This document shows, piece after piece, positions 153-25,249 of a stretch of 36,843 bases of DNA. The notes under the pieces were generated by a model. It was not told the DNA's origin and did not search any database. It saw only the letters and a list, made by a program, of their open reading frames with translations. Position numbers and translations under genes: made by a program. The stretch covers positions 1 to 36,843 of the forward strand of contig PLGY01000049.1 in assembly GCA_003139855.1 (NCBI GenBank). Direction: 5' to 3'. Every line of letters starts with the position of its first letter. The stretch's first letter is position 1. The DNA is from Candidatus Methanoflorens stordalenmirensis. GTDB taxonomy: Archaea; Halobacteriota; Bog-38; Methanoflorentales; Methanoflorentaceae.

Positions 153-322
153 TATTGCCCCTCCCCTCCGAGCCGCAGCGCGTATTCAGCTATACAGCTC
201 TTAGTGGTTGGCAACGCTTTGATTTCAGCAACGAAAGTGTCCCGCGACAAGATGGATGTTAGTTTAGCGCATTCAGTTATCAATTTTTGCAAGTTGGTTG
301 CACGGAGGATTCCGCGGCCCAT
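152..322 (-). CDS. Hypothetical small protein (56 aa), divergent from the histone gene
   Basis: A 57-codon frame with an ATG start, divergent from the histone gene. The TATA-like CATAAAAAAG on this strand (about 346-356) is centred roughly 28 bases before the ATG, which is the spacing of a leaderless archaeal transcript. The predicted protein begins MGRGILRATN and ends LRLGGEGQ. It looks like a mixed alpha/beta soluble chain with two isolated cysteines, no signal peptide and no membrane segment. I do not recognise the family. It probably forms a two-gene unit with the overlapping 47-aa ORF downstream. A longer opposite-strand frame over the same bases looks less protein-like. Confidence 0.45.
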   Translation of the reverse strand: MGRGILRATNLQKLITECAKLTSILSRDTFVAEIKALPTTKSCIAEYALRLGGEGQ

Positions 323-345
323 TAATCGACAGAATGTGAATCATA

Positions 346-356
346 ACTTTTTTATG
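346..356. promoter_or_regulatory. Probable shared TATA element of histone gene and divergent small ORF
   Basis: The T-run CTTTTTTATG reads as a TATA box for the histone gene on the plus strand (ATG about 35 bases downstream). Its complement CATAAAAAAG reads as one for the minus-strand ORF starting at 322. Placement is by eye from archaeal spacing rules. Confidence 0.4.
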
Positions 357-385
357 CGCAACGATCTTAAAGGAAAGCGATAAAT

Positions 386-598
386 ATGGCAGAAATTCCA
401 CTAGCAGTCGTTTTGCGAATTATGAAGGTTGCTGGAGCTGAAAGGGCCAATCGTAAGGCAGTGAAAATGATTGCCGAGAAAGCTGAGGACTATGGCAGCG
501 ACGTTGCCAGAGAGGCCGTTTCGCTAACGAAGCGCGCGGAGCGAAAAACGATCTCGGCAAATGACGTAAAACTAGCAACGGAACGAGTCAACCGCTAA
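386..598 (+). CDS. Archaeal histone
   Basis: A 70-residue histone-fold protein of the HMf/HMtB type that wraps DNA as dimers and larger multimers. The signature is complete: the N-terminal AEIPLA segment, RIMKVAGAERANRKAV covering helix 1 and loop 1, the long central helix, and RKTISANDVKLA covering loop 2 and helix 3. Length is normal for a single-fold archaeal histone, with no tails or fusion. The ATG is preceded by AGGAAAG at 371-377, a good ribosome-binding site. It is monocistronic: the next gene downstream is a tRNA on the other strand. Identification is certain at family level; whether other paralogues exist cannot be seen here. Confidence 0.97.
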   Translation: MAEIPLAVVLRIMKVAGAERANRKAVKMIAEKAEDYGSDVAREAVSLTKRAERKTISANDVKLATERVNR

Positions 599-22756: not shown

Positions 22757-23052
22757 TGTGCCTGTTTCTGTGCTTTCAGATGCTGCGGGCGTGCTATTAC
22801 CGTCTTTACAGCGTTGCCGTCCGTTACTTCCACCACGTATGCACGGCCGCGTTGTCCGAGCACTGTTCCGGTCCTGCCGTGGAACTTTGGATTCGGCATG
22901 CCCTTGTGGACGCTTGCGTCTAGATCGATATGGACTTTCTGGCCCACTTCAAAACTCCTGATTGCATGACTTACCGGAGCAATGCCTCGTTCCCGGATGG
23001 TTTTTTTCAGCTTGTACCGCGTCTTCCTCCGCTCACCGTGTGATCTTGGCAT
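22753..23052 (-). CDS. rpl21e: Ribosomal protein L21e
   Basis: The 99-aa archaeal/eukaryotic-type large-subunit protein. Features are [15 protein letters not shown], an SH3-like barrel with [31 protein letters not shown] and [11 protein letters not shown], and a basic tail. Full length. The ATG overlaps the pus10 TAA (TAATG) and the end overlaps rpoF, showing a very compact operon. Confidence 0.97.
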
Positions 23053-24263
23053 TAGAGACCTCCGCCAACTTGTAGTACATCAAGTTCTTCAACTTTTGCA
23101 TTTACGCCCAGAAGACTCGAAAGGCTCGGGGTGGTTCTGTCACTGTCTCCAGATATTAACTCCTTTACGTAGAGTCCACCCTCACACCGAATTATTATCT
23201 CATCACCCTCCAGCTCGGCCGAATATACTTTTTTGCGTCGCTTCAAGTCTGCACGGCGATGCACTACTCGTTGAGGGGTTGTTTGCTCTATGTCGCCTTC
23301 AAGTCGCTTGAGCGCTTCTTTTACCTTTTCCTTATGAATCGGATGTTCGTATATTACTCTAAGCCTATAAACTTTATCCAACGGGGTGTTTTTCACGTTT
23401 ACGACCGTTTCGTGGTCAGCGAACGCTAAATGACTTACCGCGATTTTTTTTTGCGAAGAGTTTATGACCTGTTCTAGTTCCTGAAGGTTGACTCTTCTTT
23501 TGTGAGGAGATCTTATCTCCAGAACAAAAGGTCTGCCGTTTCCAAGCATGCGAGCGTCGATATCCTCTCTGCCAGCGCCGTGAAATATCGCGTCTTGGCC
23601 ACGGCTTGCGCTAAGTACGTGAGGCCCCATCAGTTCCTGAACGGATTCGGGATACATTTTCCCAGTTAAGTTGCACTTTGTGCAGCCTTTGCCGCCGCAC
23701 TCGCGACACGGCCATTTCGTCTGCGGCAACCCCCTGACAAACTTTAGGTATCGGCCGGACAAAAAAAGCGGGTTCGCATGAATCTCAACCTTGTCTCTGG
23801 CCAAATCGACTATGAGTAAGATGTCTGGCCTGCTGAATTCTGCCTGTTTCCCGGTAAGAAGCTCGATACGCTTGCCCAATTCTCTGTTTAAAGCTGATTT
23901 GAGCGGCTCGGCTGTCGTCGTTTTAGACTCAGCCCACAGTATTTCTTCATTCTCAGCGAGTCTGCCAGTGAGTTTAGTGCCAACTAGAAAATTCGCAAAC
24001 TCATAGTCATGGAGCTGTTCGAGACACCGTTCAACCAAAGAATCCAGATTATTGAACAGACCTCCGCAAACCCAGCACGTGCCATAAGCATCTTCCCATT
24101 CCGAGATGTTCGCTGGTGTGTTGTCAAGCATTGCTTTGACGATTCGGATCGCCTGTCCTCGCTGTTTGTTAGTGAGGTTCGTAGAACATTTTGCAAATTG
24201 ACGCCCAAGACAATCGTCGCAAATAGGTCCTTCACTCAATATTGAGGTCACTATTTCGAACAT
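23052..24263 (-). CDS. pus10: tRNA pseudouridine synthase Pus10
   Basis: 403 aa. It makes pseudouridine 54 and 55 in archaeal tRNAs. The N-terminal THUMP-containing domain carries the paired zinc motifs CDDCLGRQF (Cys15, Cys18) and CWVCGG. The linker includes [12 protein letters not shown], an extra Cys-rich knuckle near residue 190. The catalytic domain has [20 protein letters not shown], with the nucleophilic Asp at about residue 235, then the conserved [17 protein letters not shown]. Full length. It precedes L21e as in many archaea. A half-length trmY, whose product would methylate pseudouridine 54, lies immediately upstream. Confidence 0.96.
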
Positions 24264-24337
24264 CGTCTGTCCTCGCCGTTTTTTGTTACTCAGTGATTGT
24301 GTTGAGCTTAGCCGGACCGCTTATCGTCTTTCTTGAC

Positions 24338-24607
24338 TCAGCAGAGCCTCTTCGTCTCCAGTAGTCTAAGATCGCTCGATTCCGAAAGGGAAGCCGTGAG
24401 CGTGGAGCCCGGCGCTCCACGTGTCTGGGTCGGGTTCTTACAACCCACAATCGATGCCCGGGCATTACGGCGAGCGCAAAATGGCGCGAGAAATCTAGGG
24501 TTCACGGATTGCCAGAGTACGTCGATTCTGCCTGCACACCGAGCCGCCTGGTGAAGCGAAAAATCTCCTGAAATGGCGGGTTTGTGCCTTACGGCTGTGT
24601 GCCGCAA
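24338..24607 (-). pseudogene. trmY: Truncated tRNA (pseudouridine-54 N1)-methyltransferase TrmY remnant
   Basis: An 89-codon frame (TTG start, 18 bases after the aIF2-beta stop) that reads like the first half of archaeal TrmY. The family pattern of a T/S-S-G-D-F-S-L turn, AGR-[ILM]-D-[LV]-L, V-N, and a paired Arg is present as ISGDFSLHQ, CAGRIDVLWQSVNPRF and ARRNARA. Then comes NPTQ aligned with the usual PNPP, and GSTL...SLSESSDLRLLETKRL aligned with GSEL...SPDER...KAL. It stops at TGA 75 bases before pus10, so the C-terminal SPOUT knot that binds SAM is absent. A full protein is about 190-200 aa. Other frames do not restore the missing half. Inference: a remnant, possibly replaced by an intact copy elsewhere. 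Confidence 0.6.
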
Positions 24608-24625: not shown

Positions 24626-25249
24626 TCAGCCCGGTACTTTTTCGGTGAATGCGAGAGTACCCGAGATCTTCTTGACTCGTACCTTTACGGTGTCTCCTTT
24701 TTGCGCACCCGGAACGAACAGCGAGTATTTGCCGACCTTGGCAATCCCGTCTCCTCGCTTCCCGACGGCTTCGATCCGTACGTCGTAGACGCTCCCCTCT
24801 TCAAGCGCACTCGCCGCACTTTCCTTCTTCACGTATCGTTTCCGTATAGGCCTGTGAGCGCCGCAAGCGTCACACTTTAGCATGACCGTTCTTTCACTCT
24901 TCGTTAGATGTGTGTCTGGTCTATTGCATTCTGAGCAAATTACGTACTCGGCAACATAATCCTCGATGAGGCTGGCTATCATCTCTTGCGAAAATCTGCC
25001 CTGAAAAATGACCCTCGCTCCGTCCGGCTTGCCTGCAGTCCCGAGTTCTCGTAACAGAAATTTGAGCACGTGCTCAGGATTTCTATTCAACACGTCGCTG
25101 ATTTCGCCGAAATTCTCAAAAACAGTCATTCTTCCTTCGACAAACACCCGGGGTACAGGTATCGAAAAACGTTCCGCAGCTATCGTTGTCTGAGGCAAGT
25201 TTTTGATGCCGCGATTCAAGTAGTTTTCATAACTGTCCGTACTATGCAC
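24626..25249 (-). CDS. Initiation factor aIF2 beta subunit with C-terminal TRAM domain
   Basis: 207 aa. Residues 1-138 are aIF2-beta: an N-terminal helix (SYENYLNRGIKNLP), the core NFGEISDVLNRNPEHVLKFLLRELGT and a zinc ribbon with CSECNRPDT and CDACGAHRPI. Residues about 148-206 are a TRAM RNA-binding domain (GSVYDVRIEAVGKRGDGIAKV, LFVPGAQKGDTVKVRV). The fusion is known from haloarchaea and several methanomicrobial lineages and is a useful taxonomic hint. The start is a GTG with AGAAGG partly overlapping it. It is the first recognised gene of the operon running through Pus10, L21e, Rpo4, DUF655, KsgA and HemK2. Confidence 0.95.
   Translation of the reverse strand: MHSTDSYENYLNRGIKNLPQTTIAAERFSIPVPRVFVEGRMTVFENFGEISDVLNRNPEHVLKFLLRELGTAGKPDGARVIFQGRFSQEMIASLIEDYVAEYVICSECNRPDTHLTKSERTVMLKCDACGAHRPIRKRYVKKESAASALEEGSVYDVRIEAVGKRGDGIAKVGKYSLFVPGAQKGDTVKVRVKKISGTLAFTEKVPG

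Follow-up and report, generated by a model that had tools for sequence, protein, structure and literature searches.

Genes and features at the locus

The window analysed here is the whole 36,843-nucleotide stretch of contig PLGY01000049.1 from Candidatus Methanoflorens stordalenmirensis, a draft genome of 76 contigs (G000). The genome encodes an MCR alpha subunit, and the organism is therefore a methanogen or close to one. We compared it with two sister species (G001 and G002), whose Pus10 proteins share 90-92% identity with that of G000, and with three congeners (G003, G004 and G005). The G000, G001 and G002 drafts are MAGs of 85, 80 and 88% completeness, respectively.

In G000, the stop of aIF2-beta and the start of pus10 are separated by a gap of 362 nt, which contains an open reading frame of 89 codons (Table 1). 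The frame starts with TTG, versus ATG at the equivalent site in relatives. The original prediction had placed a half-length trmY, open for 89 codons, between aIF2-beta and pus10; both the location and the open frame are borne out, and the same slot holds an intact trmY in G003 and G004. Elsewhere in the window, a tRNA-Gly(CCC) gene lies at 757-829 on the minus strand, and its T-loop begins with TTC.

Table 1. Features of the aIF2-beta/pus10 region in the window (positions are those of the window)
Feature	Position	Strand	Evidence
Upstream neighbour: intact aIF2-beta carrying a TRAM domain at its C-terminus	24626-25249	-	PF01873 3.4e-38; TRAM 1.4e-11; NF008993 2e-87
trmY pseudogene, 5' piece; ancestral TrmY frame, ~53 codons	24447..24607	-	NF002560 residues 7-61; alignment to G004/G003 trmY
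1-nt frameshift deletion, common to G000, G001 and G002	~24446 (trmY nt 164)	-	indel table versus G004 trmY
~213-nt deletion scar, G000 only	between 24425 and 24426 (trmY nt 186-398)	-	indel table versus G004 trmY
trmY pseudogene, 3' piece; frame-scrambled, reaching the pus10 start	24264..24424	-	alignment to G002 pseudogene
89-codon ORF (TTG start at 24607, stop ending at 24338); fortuitously open, unconserved as coding sequence	24338..24607	-	frame broken in G001/G002; 10% of shuffles as long
pus10, tRNA pseudouridine-54/55 synthase, intact	23052-24263	-	TIGR01213 E 9.4e-155; dN/dS 0.17-0.19 versus sisters

The gap contains a remnant of trmY

The peptide of 89 amino acids has one match in Pfam, to PF04013 (TrmY; E = 0.24, 11.5 bits), and one in NCBIfam, to NF002560 (E = 0.0048, 16.4 bits). 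TrmY is thus the sole family matched, as the original prediction had anticipated, though both scores lie below the curated cut-offs (25.5 bits for PF04013 and 183 bits for NF002560), and by profile score the peptide does not qualify as a TrmY. The matches stop by position 72 of the 198 in the TrmY profile, and a search of solved structures with the same peptide returned no match. When the intact G004 protein was used as the query against six genomes of the genus, it matched G000 at 24407-24595 on the minus strand (E = 5e-6, 38% identity). At the DNA level, the G000 gap aligns to G004 trmY with a local score of 59, compared with a maximum of 32 in 500 dinucleotide shuffles, and the 3' piece aligns to the G002 pseudogene with a score of 91 (shuffle maximum, 29).

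It is evident that the G000 remnant is derived from TrmY (COG1901/DUF358, PF04013, NF002560; tRNA pseudouridine(54)-N1-methyltransferase). The two resemble each other in DNA and in peptide, and the remnant has the same start site and lies in the same aIF2-beta/pus10 slot as the trmY of congeners, in a position adjoining pus10 that is orthologous to the intact gene of G003 and G004. It differs from TrmY in being frameshifted, in having lost about 213 nt and in falling under every curated cut-off, and it is no enzyme. The complete SPOUT fold, with its C-terminal SAM-binding knot, is not preserved; as had been predicted, the knot half is missing, and the 213-nt deletion and the frameshifts lie past the matched part.

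trmY was disabled before the three species diverged

Complete trmY genes are found between aIF2-beta and pus10 in G003 and G004, and in G005 a trmY downstream of aIF2-beta stays open up to the end of the contig. The PF04013 profile found no match in G000, G001 or G002. When the stretches between aIF2-beta and pus10 of G000-G004 were aligned, trmY remnants emerged at this locus in all three genomes, each with an intact homologue at the corresponding position in relatives. In the numbering of G004 trmY, four deletions are common to the three genomes. Two of them, at nt 164 and nt 534, remove a single nucleotide each and are disabling lesions shared by descent; the other two take out 3 nt (at nt 8) and 6 nt (at nt 548). 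A deletion of 4 nt at nt 496 is common to G000 and G002, its site falling within a large gap in G001, and additional frameshifts are common to G001 and G002. Other losses are private, namely about 213 nt (nt 186-398) in G000 and 165 nt plus 54 nt in G001; the G002 copy is near full-length yet frame-broken. The frame-breaking deletions common to the three genomes indicate that trmY was dead before their split.

The remnant also diverges in the manner of a pseudogene. Between G000 and its sisters, its divergence (JC) is 0.17-0.20, and dS of the flanking pus10 and aIF2-beta genes in the same pairs is 0.18-0.25. The differences between the G000 and G002 remnants are spread over codon positions 1, 2 and 3 (15.5, 16.1 and 20.5%) without a codon-position bias; the corresponding values for the intact trmY genes of G003 and G004 are 5.7, 6.7 and 27.3%. 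The dN/dS of pus10 within G000, G001 and G002 (Table 1) indicates purifying selection. The trmY remnant thus evolves as neutral DNA, unlike pus10.

The 89-codon frame is a by-product of trmY erosion

The ancestral TrmY frame covers only about the first 53 of the 89 codons. Downstream of this point the ORF runs across two lesions, the 1-nt deletion common to the three genomes and the scar found in G000 only, and its last codons consist of former 3' trmY DNA with a scrambled frame. The trmY remnant itself continues beyond the ORF stop as far as pus10. The idea of a half-length trmY upstream of pus10, with a surviving N-terminal half, thus holds in that the frame is TrmY-derived, and fails in that much of it is out of the TrmY frame and that scrambled 3' trmY DNA remains as well. 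We generated 2000 dinucleotide shuffles of the G000 gap as a control for ORF length; 201 of them (~10%) contained one as long as the reported frame or longer, so the openness of the frame is no sign of coding. The alignment further shows that the frame is broken in both G001 and G002. In the frame-broken trmY of G002 (L032 on G002:C34, in the aIF2-beta/pus10 gap) there is a chance ORF of 134 codons, exceeding the 89 of G000, and ORF length therefore means little at this locus. It was the erosion of trmY that left these 89 codons open.

Origin of the remnant

The stretch is almost certainly a trmY pseudogene, whose parent gene was lost in the ancestor that G000, G001 and G002 share and then eroded separately in each. 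The ancestor of the genus would have had the gene order aIF2-beta, trmY, pus10, and frameshifting deletions in the common ancestor of the three species would have ended the coding of the enzyme. Separate erosion would have followed, in G000 via the internal deletion of about 213 nt, with the 89-codon frame arising along the way. Since Pus10 and its tRNA substrate persist, U54 is probably still converted into pseudouridine, and its N1-methylation would have been lost.

An alternative, raised in the original prediction, is that the 89-codon frame is translated and that the N-terminal half of TrmY has acquired a new role, e.g., tRNA binding. It is true that the 89 codons are open and that the TTG with which they begin sits where the ancestral gene started. 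However, the frame is closed in the sister species, it crosses both the shared deletion and the private scar, its C-terminal residues are frame-scrambled, ORFs of equal length turn up in a tenth of the shuffles, and the substitutions are neutral in both rate and pattern. We consider a functional half protein very improbable; the unconserved frame and the neutral pattern, together with shared frameshifts and independent deletions, rule against it. An assembly or base-calling error could also conceal the rest of an intact trmY, given that G000 is a draft in 76 contigs, yet several of the same lesions recur in a genome from a fen (fen_3) and in another from the SPRUCE project. The genes flanking the remnant are intact, and the locus carries many separate indels and neutral substitutions rather than one break. 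With the lesions common to sister genomes that were assembled separately in different projects, an error of this kind is exceedingly improbable, and we dismiss it.

Fate of tRNA position 54

The original prediction had offered replacement by another gene copy as one outcome, and none was found in G000 or its two sister species: neither profile searches nor the congener-protein search detected a second TrmY in these genomes. TrmFO and Nep1 were not found in them either, which removes both as replacements. PF05958, the TrmA/RumA-type m5U54 family, has no match in the three genomes; only G004 and G005 gave matches, weak or short ones, and the one above the cut-off (27.6 bits, in G005) covers 54 of 357 positions. 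As these matches do not track the loss of trmY, a TrmA/RumA-type replacement was rejected as well. In a further genome of the same species as G000 (G080, 70% complete), TrmY was not found, and its contigs gave no match to the G000 aIF2-beta/trmY/pus10 locus, deletion junction included.

A displaced trmY in the sequence missing from the three MAGs is formally conceivable. Incompleteness alone would hide such a gene in all three with a probability of about 0.15 x 0.20 x 0.12 = 0.4%, if the misses are independent, and the canonical locus itself is present and dead in all three drafts. Alternatively, an unrecognised methyltransferase may make m1-pseudouridine 54, or position 54 may be methylated in another way. 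Nearly every tRNA carries a modification at position 54 (PMC9957541), and for Sulfolobus, which lacks Pus10 and TrmY, it has been suspected that an enzyme of a new type methylates this position (PMC7668247); both points speak for compensation. On the other side, TrmY paralogues, TrmFO, Nep1 and PF05958 are all unmatched in G000, G001 and G002, bearing in mind that profile searches see known families. We regard compensation as unlikely, and the particular case of a Pus10-made pseudouridine 54 methylated by an enzyme family not yet linked to this position as improbable to a similar degree.

All tRNAs inspected in G000 and G004 have TTC at positions 54-56 of the T-loop. From the gene content, position 54 in G000, G001 and G002 is most likely a pseudouridine without an N1-methyl group; loss of m1-pseudouridine 54, which the original prediction had named among the implications, would be the outcome that the absence of TrmY supports. 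We infer that these archaea can simply do without TrmY. The Pus10 of archaea forms pseudouridine 55, and that of some archaea also pseudouridine 54 (PMC7912444); this may be why pus10 was retained.

trmY loss in a wider context

In a sample of the phylum, 348 of 394 genomes have a TrmY match, as do 306 of the 322 that are at least 90% complete. The absence of TrmY is thus uncommon but recurrent. Pus10 is present with no TrmY match in G010, G014, G019, G023, G028, G037, G044, G051, G057, G062 and G063, and G031, though listed as 100% complete, is without both Pus10 and TrmY. Genomes of the phylum with Pus10 and without a TrmY match (e.g., families f10, f12 and f16) resemble G000 in having kept pus10; in these families TrmY is absent by profile, whereas in G000 an intermediate stage is visible.

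The trmY remnants also resemble unitary pseudogenes of prokaryotic gene loss, with inactivating lesions shared by a clade, subsequent independent deletions and a near-neutral rate. The difference is that in G000 a tRNA-modification gene was hit and its adjoining partner, pus10, was kept. A literature search for trmY pseudogenes found no report. The molecular feature is ordinary pseudogene decay, and what is new here is confined to the lineage concerned and to the intermediate stages that can be seen. A single genus captures the passage from a working trmY to none, with the partner pus10 retained, and this small group of peatland methane-producing archaea cleanly illustrates the loss of a gene while it is under way. 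G000, G001 and G002 versus G003 and G004 form a natural comparison for asking whether the N1-methyl group on pseudouridine 54 matters or is dispensable.

Besides its intact trmY, G004 has a second, diverged C-terminal TrmY-like fragment (L077 on G004:C27, ~279-500, plus strand; 39% identity to the intact copy). The fragment lies near the contig start and adjoins a phage-like ORF, presumably a terminase large subunit. It is possibly a trmY borne by a mobile element, or the remnant of one.
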